Assembly (NCBI GenBank): GCA_012839765.1 | Contig: DUMW01000116.1 | Span: 1 to 36,789, forward strand | DNA from: Bacillota bacterium | GTDB taxonomy: Bacteria; Bacillota; Limnochordia; DUMW01 | Direction: 5' to 3' | Length of the DNA: 36,789 bases | Shown here: positions 13,665 through 22,197 of the stretch, piece after piece | Layout: every line of letters begins with the position of its first letter | Position numbering within the stretch: the stretch's first letter is position 1 | Notes under the pieces: model-generated | Seen by the model: only the letters and a program-made list of their open reading frames with translations | Databases searched by the model: none | Told to the model about the DNA's origin: nothing | Position numbers and translations under genes: made by a program

Positions 13665-13709
13665 AAAAAAAGCGCATGTAAGTCCCTTCGGGAACTTATA
13701 CATCCGCTT
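13665..13709 (-). terminator. Intrinsic terminator of the c-di-AMP riboswitch
   Basis: On the minus strand AAGCG-ATGTA-AAGT-CCC pairs with GGG-ACTT-ACAT-CGCTT around a GAA loop with two single-base bulges, followed by TTTTTTT (13671-13665). It starts at the 3' edge of the aptamer, as expected for an expression platform. Confidence 0.85.
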
Positions 13710-13830
13710 GGAGTACTCCTACGGGGTTAGCTGACGGGCTCGGGCACCCAAGTTGCCCTACCTAGAGAACCTAGGATTCACCCCGAAAAACTGGTTCCCC
13801 CGCTGCCCATTGCTGGGATTCGGAGATATT
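13697..13830 (-). promoter_or_regulatory. c-di-AMP riboswitch (ydaO/yuaA leader)
   Basis: The minus strand carries the conserved blocks of the ydaO-yuaA class in the right order: GCGGGGGAACCA, GGGGTGAATCC, AGGTAGGGCAACT, then GCCCGAGCCCGTCAGCTAACC and CCGTAGG. This class binds cyclic di-AMP and usually controls cell-wall hydrolase, potassium or osmolyte transport genes. A candidate P1 stem pairs 13830-13821 with 13706-13697, the latter also being part of the terminator's 5' arm. No gene follows within 430 nt on the minus strand except the distant IclR regulator. Confidence 0.9.
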
Positions 13831-13858
13831 ATATATGGTTGTGTTGAAACCCGACTTC

Positions 13859-15122: not shown

Positions 15123-16286
15123 TTACATCACGGGTTCGAGGGCTCTTTCCAAGATGCCACTGAAATAGGCCAATAACACCCCGTAATTGACTACGGGGAT
15201 CCCCGCCTTCTGCAGACGTTTTAACCGCTGCAGCACCGTTTTGCGGGTCACCATACAGCCGCCACAATGGACGGCTAATTTGTAGGGTGAAAGGTCCTCT
15301 GGAAAATCTTGCCCCACCGCCCAGGTGAAATGGAGGGGGCCGTTGACCTTCTTTTGCAGTAGGGCGGGGATCTTCACCCGGCCGATGTCCTCTGTACTGG
15401 GGCGGTGGGTGCAGGCTTCACAGATTAGGATGTGATCGCCGGTCTGGAGCCTTTCGATCTGGGCTGCGCCCTCCACCAGTAGGGGTAAATCCCCCTTGTA
15501 CCGGGCGAACAGGATGGAGAAGGAGGTCAGTGGAATTTGATCTCCCACCCTTTGGGCCACTTCCCTAAAGATGCGAGAGTCGGTGATAACCAGACAAGGA
15601 GAGGCCTTCAATCCCTCCAGGGCTTGGGAAAGCTCGGAATCCTTGACCACGAGGACCTGGCAATGATGGTCCAATAGATCTCTAATGGTCTGGACCTGGG
15701 GGAGGATCAGGCGCCCCTTGGGGGCTTGCTCATCGATCGGCACCACCAAAAGCACCAGATCCCCGGGGCTGACCAGATCTCCCACGATGCTGGACGATTT
15801 TTGCTCCTGGGACAACTTCTCCACTATGGCTTCCTTCAGCTCATCGATGCCTTCTTTCGTCTTACTGCTCACCACTAAGAAATGGTCGGGTATCGACTCG
15901 TTCGTAAGCAAATCCCCTTTGTTCAAGACCTGTAGGTAAGGGATCTGCTCCCTTGCCAAAAGCGCGATGATTTCCTCATTAAGCCTTTGGGGATGGTCTG
16001 TGACCACCACCGCCAGATCAGCATTGGTCAGTGCGGTTTTTGTCCGTTCCTGCCGCTGTTGACCCAGGGGGCTTTGGTCGTTAAACCCTGCGGTGTCCAC
16101 CAGGGCCACCGGTCCGAAGGGGAGAAGTTCCATGGCCTTGTAGACCGGATCTGTGGTGGTTCCCGGTACCGGGGAGACCAGGGAGACTGCCTGGTCTGTA
16201 AGCGCGTTGATCAGACTGGATTTACCCACGTTAGTCGGACCGACGAAGACAATTTGTGGCCGTTCTCCTTTAGGTGTAGTCGCCAT
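15123..16286 (-). CDS. hydF: [FeFe]-hydrogenase maturation GTPase HydF
   Basis: 387 residues. HydF is the scaffold that carries the diiron subcluster and delivers it to apo-HydA. The N-terminal G domain has the P-loop GPTNVGKS at 16-23, a PGTTTDPV switch and DTAGFND. The C-terminal part has the HydF-type iron-sulfur ligands: CTH near residue 290 and CGGC near 341, matching the CxH...CxxC pattern. ATG 16286 follows AAGGGG at 7-nt spacing and starts 11 nt after the hydG stop; the open frame to 16304 would need a TTG. It is last in the regulator-hydE-hydG-hydF operon. No hydrogenase structural gene is in the window. Confidence 0.95.
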   Translation of the reverse strand: MATTPKGERPQIVFVGPTNVGKSSLINALTDQAVSLVSPVPGTTTDPVYKAMELLPFGPVALVDTAGFNDQSPLGQQRQERTKTALTNADLAVVVTDHPQRLNEEIIALLAREQIPYLQVLNKGDLLTNESIPDHFLVVSSKTKEGIDELKEAIVEKLSQEQKSSSIVGDLVSPGDLVLLVVPIDEQAPKGRLILPQVQTIRDLLDHHCQVLVVKDSELSQALEGLKASPCLVITDSRIFREVAQRVGDQIPLTSFSILFARYKGDLPLLVEGAAQIERLQTGDHILICEACTHRPSTEDIGRVKIPALLQKKVNGPLHFTWAVGQDFPEDLSPYKLAVHCGGCMVTRKTVLQRLKRLQKAGIPVVNYGVLLAYFSGILERALEPVM

Positions 16287-16297
16287 CCTATCGCCCC

Positions 16298-17692
16298 TTA
16301 CCAATAGATATCCCTGGTTCCGCTATTGATCCTCGCCAGGGCCTCTTCGATCTTTCGGACTTGGTTGCGGTTGTTAAGCTTATCCAGTTCCCCTTGGATA
16401 AACCGGCTTCCCAGTTCCCTTGTGGCCGGCGAGGCGTAATCGCACAGGTATTCCTGCAAAGTGAAGAGCGCGTTGGGCTGACAGACGTTTTGGATCTCCC
16501 CGGTTTTTGCCAATTCCATGAACCGGTCACCGGTGCGGCCTTGACGGTAACAGGCGGTGCAGAAGCTGGGCAGAAAACCCCGTTTCAACAGATCCTGGAC
16601 CACCTCATCTAAGGTGCGGTGATCTGCCACTTCGAATTGGGCCGAGTCCTCGTGGGCCTTTGCGTAGCCACCCACATCGGTGCGGGAGCCACCACTGATC
16701 TGGGAAACGCCCAGCTCTAAGAGTTCGCCCCGCAGCTGGGGTGTTTCCCGGGTGGAAATGATGATGCCTGTATAGGGCAGGGCTAAGCGGAATAGGGCCA
16801 CGATTTTCTTCAACTCATGATCCGTGACGAGGTGGGGGTAGTTTTCCAGGTTCACCCCCGGTGCCATCCGCAGCCTAGGTACAGAGACGGTGTGGGGTCC
16901 CACGCCAAATTCCTGTTCCAAATGATACGCGTGGAACAAAAGTCCCAATACTTCGTAACGGTAGTCATAAAGGCCGAAGAGGATTCCCAAGCCCACATCA
17001 TCGATTCCCCCCTCCATGGCCCGGTCCATGGCGAACAAATGCCATAGGTAGTCGTGCTTTGGACCCCTGGGATGCACCTTTTCATAGGTGTCCCGATGAT
17101 AGGTTTCCTGGAACAGTACGTAGGTGCCGATCCCTGCTTCTTTCAAAAGACGATATTCCTCCACCGTGGTCGCGGCAATATTCACATTGACCCGCCGGAT
17201 GATGCCTTTGTCCGCTGCGGTATCATAGATGGTGGAGATGGCATCCAAGACATATTCGATAGGGCAGTTTAGCGGATCTTCCCCTGCCTCCAAGGCCAAT
17301 CTCTTGTGGCCCATCTGTTCTAATAAGCGGACTTCCTCGGCGATCTCCTCCATGGTGAGGCTTTTACGGGAGATGGGGTTCTTGCAGCGATACCCACAAT
17401 AGGTGCAGCTGTTTACACAATAATTGCTGATGTATAGGGGTGCGAACAACACGATGCGGCTGCCGTAGATCCGTTGTTTTACCGCCCGGCTAGCTTGGAA
17501 TAGGGCTTCCTCCACCGCCGGGTCAGAGGATTGCAGGATCTGGGCAACCAATTCCAGGGACAAGGCACCTTCCCTTTCCACCGCATGGATTGCGGCCTGC
17601 AGTTCCTGGGGATCCAGAGGATTCTCTCTGGCCTCCTCGAGCAGTCCCCAAATCTTCTCGTCACTGATAAACCCTGTGTTATACTTGGACAT
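16298..17692 (-). CDS. hydG: [FeFe]-hydrogenase maturation radical SAM tyrosine lyase HydG
   Basis: 464 residues from ATG 17692, preceded by AGGAGGG. HydG cleaves tyrosine to p-cresol and supplies CO and cyanide for the H-cluster. The radical SAM motif is Cys92, Cys96, Cys99 (NYCVNSCTYCGYRC). The HydG-specific second cluster site is present near the C-terminus (FCTACYRQGRTGDRFM, then NVC), which binds the dangler iron cluster. The start overlaps the end of hydE by 14 nt, implying translational coupling. Length and motifs are those of a full HydG, not ThiH, which is shorter. Confidence 0.95.
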   Translation of the reverse strand: MSKYNTGFISDEKIWGLLEEARENPLDPQELQAAIHAVEREGALSLELVAQILQSSDPAVEEALFQASRAVKQRIYGSRIVLFAPLYISNYCVNSCTYCGYRCKNPISRKSLTMEEIAEEVRLLEQMGHKRLALEAGEDPLNCPIEYVLDAISTIYDTAADKGIIRRVNVNIAATTVEEYRLLKEAGIGTYVLFQETYHRDTYEKVHPRGPKHDYLWHLFAMDRAMEGGIDDVGLGILFGLYDYRYEVLGLLFHAYHLEQEFGVGPHTVSVPRLRMAPGVNLENYPHLVTDHELKKIVALFRLALPYTGIIISTRETPQLRGELLELGVSQISGGSRTDVGGYAKAHEDSAQFEVADHRTLDEVVQDLLKRGFLPSFCTACYRQGRTGDRFMELAKTGEIQNVCQPNALFTLQEYLCDYASPATRELGSRFIQGELDKLNNRNQVRKIEEALARINSGTRDIYW

Positions 17693-18689
17693 TTGCGTCC
17701 CTCCTGTAATAGTGGCCATGGTCCTGGGCAACAGTGCGGCCGAGTCCGCGGATCATGTCCTCGATTTCTTCGCGGACAGTAAGATGATTTGCCCGGGCGC
17801 CACGGCTTTTGCCCGGGTAAATCTCGTATTTCCTCCGGTAATGCAGGGGCGTGATATTGGGCATGATCACGTTGGCTCCAGCCCGAAGTGCCCTTTCCCT
17901 ACCCTTGGGATCGATGGTGGCCAGGGCCGTGGTGGCCGGCAGGTGAACGTCGGGCAGGACTAACCGGGTAAGGGCAACGGCGTTCAAGGTGATGTCCACG
18001 GAGCCCGGTGGTGTGGCCCCCAAGGGTGTATTGGGGTGGGGAATGAAAACTCCGATGCCTACCATCGCCGGTGCAAATTCTTTCATGAAGAGAATGTCCG
18101 CGGCGATGGTCTCCAGCCCCTGTCCGGGTAGCCCCACCATGATGCCTGTGCCCACCTGGTAGCCCAGTTCCTTCAGGGTATAGAGGGCGCCAATCCGGGA
18201 CCGATAGCTTCCCCGGGGGTGCAGTCGGGCGTAGAGATCTGGGTCGATGGTTTCGTGCTTTAACAAATAGCGATCGGCCCCGGCTTGCCGGAATTGGGCC
18301 AGTTCCTCCTTGGGGCGCTCTCCCAAGGAAAGGGTTACCGCCACGCCCATTTGTTTGATCTCCCGGACGATGGTACAGATTTTGTCCACATCGTACCAAG
18401 GGTCTTCCCCTGACTGGAGGACGATGGTTTTATATCCTGCGGCAGTCCCGATCCGGGCTGCCTGGAGGATCTCTTCTACACTCATTCGGTACCGCAGTAG
18501 CCGGCGATTGTCCCGCCGCAATCCGCAGTAAACGCAGTTTCTTACACAGTAGTTGGAAAACTCGATAATCCCCCGTAGATGGACTGCCTCTCCTAAGGTT
18601 TCTTTGCGGATGCGGTCTGCCTCTGCCCACAGCTTTTCCTGTTCCTGCCCCCGGGCCTGGAGCCTGTCAATGAGGTCCTGTTTGGTCAT
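17679..18689 (-). CDS. hydE: [FeFe]-hydrogenase maturation radical SAM enzyme HydE
   Basis: 336 residues. HydE acts after HydG, converting the Fe(CO)2CN synthon toward the diiron centre. The radical SAM motif is Cys48, Cys52, Cys55 (SNYCVRNCVYCGLRRDN). Other family marks are LQSGEDPWYD, SLGERPKEELAQFRQAGADRYLLKHET and FIPHPNTPLG. No second cluster cysteines are visible in the C-terminus, which is acceptable in this family. ATG 18689 has GAGG 8 nt upstream and lies just after the stop of the TM1266-type gene. Confidence 0.95.
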   Translation of the reverse strand: MTKQDLIDRLQARGQEQEKLWAEADRIRKETLGEAVHLRGIIEFSNYCVRNCVYCGLRRDNRRLLRYRMSVEEILQAARIGTAAGYKTIVLQSGEDPWYDVDKICTIVREIKQMGVAVTLSLGERPKEELAQFRQAGADRYLLKHETIDPDLYARLHPRGSYRSRIGALYTLKELGYQVGTGIMVGLPGQGLETIAADILFMKEFAPAMVGIGVFIPHPNTPLGATPPGSVDITLNAVALTRLVLPDVHLPATTALATIDPKGRERALRAGANVIMPNITPLHYRRKYEIYPGKSRGARANHLTVREEIEDMIRGLGRTVAQDHGHYYRRDANVQV

Positions 18690-18699
18690 GGTTCTTGCC

Positions 18700-18954
18700 T
18701 CAATTCTTTTTGGTAATCAGGCCGGTCTTCACCTTCACACCGGGGATGGTGCCAAGTTTCCCACTGAGGGCACCGATTTCGTCGGTGGAGCCGTCTAAAA
18801 TGAGGGCGATGACCGAGACGCCTTCCTGGCGATAGGGTACCCCCATTCGCCCCACGATGATTTCCCCGTATTCACTCAGTAACCTGTTGACCCGTTCTGC
18901 TGCTTCCTGACGATTCTCAATGACGATACCCAACACACCGATACCTTGTGTCAT
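18700..18954 (-). CDS. TM1266-family iron-only hydrogenase system regulator
   Basis: 84 residues from ATG 18954, with AAGGAGG at ideal spacing; the longer open frame to 19041 runs through the terminator hairpin and is not used. The protein is a small ferredoxin-like/ACT-like fold (IGVLGIVIENRQEAAERVNRLLSEYGEIIVGRMGVP, then VSVIALILDGSTDEIGALSGKLG). The family is found next to hydE/hydG and resembles the NikR C-terminal ligand-binding domain, but lacks a DNA-binding domain. It is the first gene of the maturation operon; its molecular role is not established. Confidence 0.9.
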   Translation of the reverse strand: MTQGIGVLGIVIENRQEAAERVNRLLSEYGEIIVGRMGVPYRQEGVSVIALILDGSTDEIGALSGKLGTIPGVKVKTGLITKKN

Positions 18955-19151
18955 CTTGTTACCTCCTTGGGAAAAATAAAAAAGCGCCTTGACAAGGTCA
19001 GCAATAGACACCTTGCCAAAGCGCAGCGCACGTCGCTCCATCGATGTCGATTGCCCCTCAACTCAGAAAGACCTTGTCTTAGGGATCGTTGTCCTGTTGT
19101 GCCCGCCATCTAGCCGTAGCCCGACGACCGGCAAGTTGTGAAAAGTATCAC
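18955..19151 (-). promoter_or_regulatory. Structured attenuator leader of the hyd maturation operon
   Basis: The RNA from the predicted start (about 19151) to the first gene is roughly 200 nt. It holds a local hairpin AAGAC-AAG-GTCTT inside a CCCT/AGGG stem (about 19087-19054). The nine bases GACAAGGTC (19078-19070) are perfectly complementary to GACCTTGTC (18999-18991) in the terminator's 3' arm, forming a candidate antiterminator. I do not recognise any known riboswitch or T-box consensus. Confidence 0.6.
18972..19024 (-). terminator. Attenuating terminator ahead of the TM1266-type gene
   Basis: A continuous 15-bp stem with two G-U pairs (19024-19010 with 18998-18984) around an 11-nt loop is followed by TTTTTTATTTTT. 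It lies between the promoter and the operon, ending 18 nt before the ATG, so it must regulate rather than end the operon. Confidence 0.85.
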
Positions 19152-19157
19152 GATCAC

Positions 19158-19186
19158 TTTATACCATATTTTTGGAGAAAAAGCAA
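19158..19186 (-). promoter_or_regulatory. Promoter of the hyd maturation operon
   Basis: On the minus strand TTGCTT (19186-19181), exactly 17 bases, TATAAA (19163-19158), with an extended TGG before the -10. Start near 19151. Confidence 0.75.
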
Positions 19187-20010: not shown

Positions 20011-20039
20011 TTGACAAGGGACACCATCCAGTCTAAACT
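20011..20039 (+). promoter_or_regulatory. Promoter of the fprA operon
   Basis: TTGACA (20011-20016), 17 bases, TAAACT (20034-20039). The start would fall near 20046, inside the palindromic operator. Confidence 0.65.
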
Positions 20040-20042
20040 ACT

Positions 20043-20061
20043 AGTAATCATTATCATTACT
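20043..20061. promoter_or_regulatory. Fur/PerR-like operator at the fprA transcription start
   Basis: AGTAATCAT-T-ATCATTACT is a 19-bp palindrome with one mismatched pair. It is close to the classical Fur box and related in shape to the PerR box. Lying 4 bases after the -10, it would block transcription when occupied, fitting iron- or peroxide-responsive control of an oxygen-defence operon. Confidence 0.6.
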
Positions 20062-20103
20062 GGTGTTTCTTGGCGGGACACTAACTGCAAAGGAGAGTCA
20101 GAT

Positions 20104-21324
20104 ATGTATACAGGCCCTTATTCAGCAATCAAAGTTAGTGATCACGTCTACTGGGTTGGTGCCATCGATTGGACGGTTAGGGACTTTCACGGATACGCTA
20201 CGGAACGGGGGAGTACATATAACGCTTATCTCATCCTGGGAGATAAGATCACCCTGATCGACACCGTGGAACCAGAGTTTAAGAACCAACTGTTGGCCCG
20301 GATTTCTTCGGTGATCGAGCCGAGCAGGATCGATTATATTATCTCCAATCACTCGGAACCGGATCATGCAGGGGCTCTGGCGGAGGTGGCGGCCCTGGTG
20401 CAGCCGGAGAAGATCTTTGCGTCCAAGATGGGGGTGCGGAACCTGCAGGCCCATTTCCATCAGCCCCTGAATTTAGTACCTGTGGCGACGGGGGACAAGC
20501 TGTCATTGGGGAATCTCACCTTGGAGTTCATCGAGACCCGGATGCTGCACTGGCCTGACAGCATGTTTACCTTCTTGGTGGAGGATGGGGTGTTGTTTTC
20601 CAGTGACGCCTTCGGTATGCATCTGGCCAGCAATGCCCGGTTTGACGATCAGATCGATGATTGGGAATATGAAGCGGTGAAGTACTACGCCAATATCCTG
20701 CTTCCCTATTCGGGACTGGTCCCAGAACTGTTGGATGAAGTGGCCGCCATGAATCTGCCGATCAAAATCATTGCTCCGGCCCATGGTTTCATCTGGCGCA
20801 AGGACCTACAAACCATTCAGTCTCTGTATCGCCGCTGGGCAGAACAGAAGCCCACCAAGAAAGTGGTAGTGGCCTATGATACCATGTGGGGTAGTACCGC
20901 CAAGATGGCCGATGCCATTATGGAAGGTCTTTGGTCCGGTGGTGTCGAACCTAAGGGAATGGATCTGCGGGTAACCCACCGCAGTGATGTGGTGGCGGAG
21001 CTTTTGGAAGCCGGTGGATTGATCATCGGAACATCCACCCTGAATAACGGCCTCCTCCCCAGGGTAGGGGAACTACTTACTTACATCAAGGGTTTGCGTC
21101 CCAGAAACTTACAGACCTTTGTCTTTGGTTCCTATGGCTGGAGTGGAGAAGCGGTAGGTCAAGTGGAAAAGTTATTTGACGAGATGGGCCTGGGTGTCTT
21201 CCGCGAGGGGATTCGGTCCTGGTATGTGCCCAATCAGGAAGTCCTGGAGGCCTGTTTCAACGCTGGTCAGGAATTTGCAGCCCAGCTGCTGGAGACAATT
21301 AGAAGAGAGGAGGGAAATGCATGA
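20104..21324 (+). CDS. fprA: A-type flavoprotein (flavodiiron protein) FprA
   Basis: 406 residues from ATG 20104, after AAGGAG. Flavodiiron proteins reduce O2 to water, or NO to N2O, at a diiron site next to FMN. The metallo-beta-lactamase-like domain has all expected iron ligands: His83, Glu85, Asp87 (NHSEPDHAG), His149, Asp168 and His227. The flavodoxin domain begins near residue 253 ([19 protein letters not shown]) with later FMN loops ([22 protein letters not shown]). The frame is open upstream to 20011, but that part contains the promoter and operator. It overlaps the rubredoxin start by 4 nt and forms a complete electron-transfer unit with the two genes downstream. Confidence 0.95.
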
Positions 21325-21482
21325 CAAAGTACGAATGCACACTCTGCGGGTATATCTATGATCCTGAGGTAGGCGATCCCGATAACGGTGTGGAGCCAGG
21401 CACCGCGTTTGAGGATCTGCCTGAGGATTGGGTGTGTCCCCTGTGTGGGGCGGGAAAGGACGAGTTTGAGCCGGTAGAATGA
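21321..21482 (+). CDS. Rubredoxin
   Basis: 53 residues. ATG 21321 overlaps the fprA stop (ATGA), with GAGGAGGG upstream. The four cysteine ligands are Cys6, Cys9, Cys39 and Cys42 ([10 protein letters not shown] and [12 protein letters not shown]), with the usual aromatic core and EDLPEDW. It carries a single Fe(Cys)4 centre and most likely donates electrons to FprA. Confidence 0.95.
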
Positions 21483-21510
21483 AGGGGGTAGGCGGCGGCA
21501 AGACAGCCGC
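21481..21510 (+). promoter_or_regulatory. Ribosome binding site separated from its start by a hairpin
   Basis: AAGGGGGTAGG (21482-21492) is too far from ATG 21517 for normal use. GCGGC/GCCGC (21495-21499 with 21506-21510) can form a small hairpin that brings it to about 8 nt. No other Shine-Dalgarno sequence is nearby. Confidence 0.4.
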
Positions 21511-21516
21511 GATGCT

Positions 21517-22197
21517 ATGGATATAAAAGCCCTGTGGCAATTGTCCTATGGTCTGTATGTTGTAAGCAGCAAAGGCGATGACGTGATAAACGGGCAGATC
21601 GCGAATACAGGTTTTCAGATCACAGCAGAACCGGTCTGTGTGGCAGTGGCGATAAATAAGCAGAACTATACCCACTCCCTCATCAAGGCCAGTGGGTTGT
21701 TTACCCTGTCCGTCCTTTCCCTAGATACTCCCATGGAGCTGATTGGCAAGTTTGGCTTTCAATCAGGCCGGGACACGGATAAGTTCGCCGGATTGAACTA
21801 TGGATTAAGCCCGGCCGGGGTGCCCTATTTGAAGGATTACACCCTGGGCTGGCTCGGTTTGAAGCTGATCGGTCAACACGATTACTACACCCACACCATC
21901 TTTGTGGGAGAATTGACCGACGCAGAGGTGTTGATGGAGGGCATACCGTTGACCTATGCCCACTATTACGCGGTGAAGGGTGGCACTGCTCCCAAAACGG
22001 CCCCCACATACCGCCAGCCAGAAGAGCGGATTTCCGAGGGAGCCTACCGCTGTACGGTGTGTGGTTACGTTTACAACCCCAAGAATGGGGATCCCGCGGC
22101 CAAGATTCCGCCCGGTACGGCTTTCGCTGACTTACCCGAGGATTGGGTATGTCCTGTTTGTAAGGCTAAGAAGGACAAGTTTGAACCTGTTGGGTAA
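21517..22197 (+). CDS. hrb: High-molecular-weight rubredoxin (flavin reductase-rubredoxin fusion)
   Basis: 226 residues. Residues 1-155 are a flavin reductase-like FMN-binding domain ([57 protein letters not shown]). Residues 172-226 are a complete rubredoxin with [10 protein letters not shown] and [15 protein letters not shown]. The same fusion (Hrb) is known next to fprA in the acetogen Moorella, where it passes electrons from NADH to FprA; the same role is inferred here. It is the third gene of the operon. The start lacks a close ribosome binding site, as noted in the preceding entry. Confidence 0.92.

Follow-up and report, generated by a model that had tools for sequence, protein, structure and literature searches.

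A conserved hairpin ahead of the TM1266-hydE-hydG-hydF operon: a probable transcription attenuator of a likely new RNA family

The window analysed here, a stretch of 36,789 nucleotides from a 2.56-Mb genome of the Limnochordia, carries an operon with the order TM1266-hydE-hydG-hydF on its minus strand, as identified by Pfam and TIGR profile matches.

18700..18954, minus strand: TM1266-family protein of 84 aa, first gene of the operon (PF21699, E 2.2e-33; TIGR03959, E 1.1e-32)
17679..18689, minus strand: hydE (TIGR03956, E 9e-110)
16298..17731, minus strand: hydG open reading frame (TIGR03955, E 4.6e-196), the true start probably lying inside it
15123..16304, minus strand: hydF (TIGR03918, E 1.8e-159)

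The start codon of TM1266 is at 18954. An in-frame ATG at 19041 was considered as the start of a leader peptide or of an N-terminal extension, and was rejected on the AGGAGG motif and the homologous starts, which place the start of TM1266 at 18954. The 84-aa protein is a NikR-C-like domain (PF21699, besides a weak match to PF08753), and a DNA-binding part is absent. The homologue with a solved structure is 2nzc, with four chains. Members of the TM1266 family have long carried the annotation of putative iron-only hydrogenase regulators, and to our knowledge no target has been assigned to them.

Divergent from the operon, at 20011-22197 on the plus strand, lie genes for a flavodiiron-type protein (ODP beta-lactamase and flavodoxin) and a flavin reductase-rubredoxin fusion, a pair that would fit an oxygen or redox defence near an oxygen-sensitive enzyme system. 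The window also contains a c-di-AMP riboswitch at 13700-13835 on the minus strand (RF00379, 97 bits, E 4.5e-22); the next larger open reading frame on the same strand encodes an IclR-family regulator (13234-12437), with small ones in between.

Direct reading of the minus strand gives the operon a leader of about 197 nt, in agreement with the roughly 200 nt noted from the sequence alone. The following features were assigned to it and to its promoter.

19158..19186, minus strand: candidate promoter TTGCTT-17-TATAAA, by direct reading, with 8 of 12 consensus bases
19136..19153, minus strand: Rex-type operator TCGTGATACTTTTCACAA, overlapping the predicted start site of transcription, with one mismatch to TTGTGA-N6-TCACAA
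19100..19133, minus strand: 5' leader hairpin, from the minimum-energy fold
19052..19085, minus strand: conserved regulatory hairpin, with CCCU/GGGG outer pairs, AA x GA, GAC/GUU, AA x GA, GG/CU and a loop
19070..19078, minus strand: putative antiterminator strand GACAAGGTC, in the 5' half of the conserved hairpin, complement of 18991-18999
18972..19024, minus strand: intrinsic terminator with a 15-bp stem and a T-run, by direct reading and within the minimum-energy fold
18991..18999, minus strand: putative antiterminator partner GACCTTGTC, the last loop base and the first 8 bases of the terminator 3' arm

The sequence-only reading had described the promoter as good. Its elements are present, with the -35 TTGCTT at 19186-19181, a 17-nt spacer and the -10 TATAAA at 19163-19158, but the adjective is generous for a candidate that scored under the threshold of a consensus scan. 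It gains support because the Rex-type operator overlaps it. The genome encodes two proteins with a Rex N-terminal domain, and the near-palindrome at the candidate promoter is of the TTGTGA-N6-TCACAA type that Rex operators show at fermentation and hydrogenase genes under redox control, so that it can be regarded as a probable Rex operator. Of 113 related leaders, 22 have a Rex-type site with at most one mismatch, where shuffles yield 0.65. Rex bound at the start site would add NADH/NAD+ control of initiation, upstream of the RNA element and distinct from it. Judged by these sequence features, redox control most simply sits at the promoter and not in the leader RNA.

The terminator consists of a 5' arm (19024-19010), a loop (19009-18999), a 3' arm (18998-18984) and a T-run (18983-18972); two of the 15 pairs in the stem are G-U, and the T-run ends 18 nt ahead of the first gene, as had been noted before. 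The perfect complementarity between the nine bases 19078-19070 and 18999-18991, also noted before, holds as well. Among 2000 dinucleotide shuffles, a run of at least nine against either terminator arm appears in 18 (p ~0.009) and against the 3' arm alone in seven. Taken alone, the complementarity of GACAAGGTC to the terminator is suggestive only.

Folded without constraints, the leader has a minimum-energy structure that includes both the conserved hairpin and the terminator. The hairpin region folds as CCCU-AA-GAC-AA-GG-UCUUU-CU-GA-GUU-GA-GGGG, a fold that is conserved in relatives. The local hairpin AAGAC-AAG-GTCTT, in which the nine bases had earlier been placed, belongs to this larger hairpin but is not the best local fold by minimum energy. 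The fold with hairpin and terminator has a predicted energy of -67.7 kcal/mol and the antiterminator fold one of -62.7 kcal/mol. The leader is thus predicted to have the two mutually exclusive folds of an attenuator, in line with the earlier proposal, and the pairing recurs in relatives. Since these energies put the antiterminator fold at a disadvantage of 5 kcal/mol, the ON state would not be favoured at equilibrium in the window. The 5' leader hairpin lies where many relatives carry an extra CCUGA...AGGG hairpin; in the window it is a hairpin predicted from the minimum-energy fold.

At the level of DNA similarity, the leader gives only chance matches across the class (E 0.003 or worse), the best of which covers the region of the Rex site; the primary sequence is therefore not conserved. 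To obtain relatives, we collected TM1266 homologues (80 loci and further genomes) and read their upstream regions. Many of these contain two similar short units of the form CCUGAnnnn(R)AGGG. Within each leader one loop complements the other, while the loop sequences differ between leaders (UUAC/GUAA, UUGC/GCAA, UGGC/GCCA, GUCC/GGGC, GAAC/GUUU, CUUA/UAAG). The loop-to-loop pairing is better than every permutation, 0/2000 for the full set and 0/5000 for a non-redundant subset. In a hand-picked set of 16 sequences pair counts give 95.6% paired, with 23 double-change cells against 6.7 in shuffles. Among 84 members 96.8% of the cells are paired, with 179 double-change cells against 49 and a covariation of 0.540 against 0.134 (0/500 shuffles); this alignment was fitted to the model, so cleaner evidence comes from the 16 sequences and from the permutation test. 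All shuffle and permutation tests reported here ignore phylogeny. Compensatory changes among homologues, on which the sequence-only reading had let its stems depend, are strong in both sets.

RNAalifold, unaided, folds the element into one nested hairpin with CCU/GGG outer pairs, a GA x RA loop, the X/Y helix, a second GA x RA loop and GG/CC inner pairs. The consensus, found across many Firmicutes, is CCU-GA-XXXX-RA-GG-loop-CC-GA-YYYY-RA-GGG, about 37 nt in length and near-symmetrical, with two GA x RA internal loops around a co-varying middle X/Y helix. A kissing-hairpin topology was dropped in favour of the nested hairpin, which retains the X/Y pairs, has further co-varying pairs inside them and is the one picked by RNAalifold. 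A MAFFT alignment that combined GCGG-type with GA-type members had one column shifted and was excluded from modelling. Intrinsic terminators were found automatically in most of the relatives that carry the core.

To place the window leader, two covariance models were built, R1 from 16 and R2 from 84 relatives, with the window left out of both; their calibration was short and all E-values are rough. When R1 is run over both strands of the window, 19085-19052 ranks first with 16.7 bits and E 0.024, the next match having E 0.59. It is also the top match of R2 in the window, with 21.9 bits and E 3e-4, and it ranks first when R1 is run over the whole 2.56-Mb genome, there with E ~1.6. Under stricter filters the window leader is absent from the multi-genome search results. 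The middle helix in the window has 3 bp, one of them G-U. Given the modest scores and its loss under stricter filters, we regard the window leader as a divergent member, predicted to form the nested hairpin of the family at a low absolute score. The surroundings are those of the family: the hairpin lies upstream of TM1266, followed by hydE, hydG and hydF, and an intrinsic terminator stands between the hairpin and the start codon.

The leader matches no family in Rfam 15, in line with the sequence-only reading, which had assigned it to no known class. The window leader has no match at the gathering threshold, only chance matches up to E 10, and the leader element in the strong relatives has no match either. 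A literature search for a leader RNA or riboswitch of hydE, hydG or TM1266 returned no relevant paper, one large survey from 2017 lying outside its scope. The RNA family is likely, but not certain, to be new, because some published motifs are missing from Rfam.

Our main reading, to which we give a probability of roughly 0.7, is that a new cis-regulatory RNA family, widespread and serving H-cluster assembly genes, includes the leader as a divergent member, and that the leader acts as a transcription attenuator. In the proposed mechanism, the formed hairpin would keep its 5' strand from the terminator and RNA polymerase would stop (OFF). When the hairpin does not form, the 5' strand would be free to pair with the terminator's 3' side, so that transcription would read through into TM1266-hydE-hydG-hydF (ON). 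Less certainly, a feedback effector, most likely the TM1266 protein, would stabilise the hairpin.

The relatives give independent support to the idea of a switch between two folds, since their hairpin 5' strands complement their own terminators more than those of other members (0/2000 permutations). Ten members have a hairpin-terminator complement of at least 8 nt, against 1.6 expected. In L154 and L155 CTCCTGACTT in the hairpin 5' strand pairs with AAGTCAGGAG in the terminator region, in L217 CCCTGATAA pairs with TTATCAGGG, and the counterpart in the window is the pairing of GACAAGGTC with GACCTTGTC. A long complement to the terminator is absent in most family members. The competing pair is formed by the hairpin 3' flank and the terminator 5' arm in L104 and L010, and by the first unit and the terminator 5' arm in L060. 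A universal pairing of the core with the terminator 5' arm was also considered and rejected; it shows a weak excess (mean rank 0.385 against 0.5), with strong cases in L060, L076, L104 and L010.

The low score of the window member, the Rex operator over the start site and the less stable antiterminator could also mean that in this genome the hairpin is a decayed relic, and that the operon has only a Rex-regulated promoter and a constitutive leaky terminator. We find this unlikely. The leader still has the antiterminator complement, its minimum-energy fold matches the conserved hairpin exactly, and a terminator without a switch so close to the first gene would permanently cripple the operon.

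The RNA family is widely distributed. R2 matches 104 of 399 genomes of the phylum at E<=0.01, about a quarter, and R1 matches 61. The covariance search proposed with the original observation does find related hairpins before TM1266 and hydE genes. The members were gathered partly through TM1266, while the genome scans with R1 and R2 are unbiased for gene context. R2 gives 113 matches at E<0.001; TM1266 follows the hairpin within 700 nt in 60 of them and immediately precedes it in 8. In the three of these eight that were read, the hairpin precedes hydG and a terminator. In the other contexts inspected, the hairpin is nearly always directly before hydE, hydG, hydF, aspA-hydF or the gene of an ECF S-component. 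L206 and L216 have no hyd-related explanation, and the contexts of L193 and L195 run into a contig end or are too short for annotation. The hairpins of L216 (449-534, 1991-2028) precede an SsuC/TauC-like ABC transporter and not a hyd gene. In L003, a purine riboswitch (RF00167, 52 bits) is located at 874-975 on the minus strand, near the TM1266 leader and on the opposite strand to it.

Small membrane proteins of the ECF transporter S-component family (PF12822) follow the hairpin in six loci (L214, L239, L240, L243, L244, L253). The membrane protein of L254 is similar to these, yet without a Pfam match, and in L256 a homologue just below the cut-off follows TM1266. The repeated association of this gene with the hairpin or with TM1266 suggests an undescribed transport function tied to H-cluster assembly. 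In L245 (G248:C4:78760-78796) what looks by eye like an aspartate ammonia-lyase gene lies under the RNA element and is followed by hydF; L211, again judged by eye, has such a gene beside hydF under the element as well. The enzyme could be a source of ammonia for the azadithiolate bridge. As read from these gene neighbourhoods, the set is a regulon centred on the H-cluster.

Among genomes with HydE, R1 detects the RNA in 60 of 188 that have TM1266 and in 0 of 33 that lack it (Fisher 2e-5; p = 0.03 at the family level), presence of HydE and TM1266 being scored by thresholds and in partly incomplete genomes. With R2, five TM1266-negative genomes give matches (E 5e-4 to 7e-3), roughly as many as chance would produce at that threshold. 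Because HydE genomes without TM1266 also lack the RNA, TM1266 is our leading effector candidate, as a feedback RNA-binding protein; the link is correlative, and we put its chance at a little under one half. Tentatively, TM1266 proteins may be RNA-binding attenuation proteins, NikR-C/ACT-like oligomers that sense a metal or an H-cluster precursor and stop transcription via the hairpins of their own and other hyd leaders.

A direct-ligand riboswitch is nearly as likely. The hairpin would then be the aptamer, and a small molecule or metal ion bound by both GA x RA loops would trigger termination without a protein. Compact, strongly conserved internal loops between co-varying helices and followed by terminators are consistent with this, as are the tandem copies, two or more, in some leaders (L216, L202, L184, L180, L077, L110). 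Biosynthetic enzymes and an ECF S-component would also make a typical riboswitch regulon. However, the element is very small, and a switch that needs only a ligand would not need TM1266, yet at the R1 threshold the RNA is absent from all 33 HydE genomes that lack it. Given this strict co-occurrence, a small ligand is no more likely than an RNA-binding protein. The idea of an undescribed attenuator-type leader for [FeFe]-hydrogenase maturation thus stands, on the lack of an Rfam match and the compensatory changes, while the part of the earlier interpretation that made it a riboswitch for iron, SAM or a redox signal is not established.

The protein could also be another antiterminator, of ANTAR, LicT/SacT or HutP type, that recognises two small stem-loops. 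In ANTAR targets, A1 and G4 mark the hexaloops of two separate stems. The halves of our element can be drawn as CCU-loop-AGG stem-loops, superficially like these dual hexaloops, and should TM1266 prove to be the effector, the leader would have in common with the targets of proteins such as EutV that a protein controls a terminator by way of small tandem RNA elements. But the two loops co-vary together into one nested hairpin, they do not show the A1/G4 pattern, and no gene for ANTAR or another such protein is found in the operon, so that this explanation is very improbable and the element was not assigned to the ANTAR targets.

Compared with known systems, the leader resembles transcription-attenuating riboswitches in its position, conserved structure, terminator, mutually exclusive pairing and coherent downstream genes. 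It differs from them in the lack of an Rfam class, the small size of the aptamer-like part (~37 nt) and the co-occurrence with TM1266. The Guanidine-II (mini-ykkC) riboswitch is likewise pseudo-symmetric, with two similar small tandem halves, but the leader does not match it in Rfam, its halves fold together into a single nested hairpin whose middle helix co-varies, and the genes are others. The NiCo/czcD riboswitch has been reported to respond to Fe2+, according to an entry in the reference list of PMC10043782. Metal-related regulation is conceivable for the leader too, but it has no Rfam match to that class, and size and genes differ.

The literature searched offers no explanation of how bacteria match H-cluster assembly to demand. 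The family described here offers a defined RNA element, a candidate partner in TM1266 and coherent targets that include an ECF S-component. Both possible outcomes, a new ligand for a riboswitch and a new family of RNA-binding proteins, are directly testable, and the hairpin element could be used as a control part in hydrogen-producing strains.
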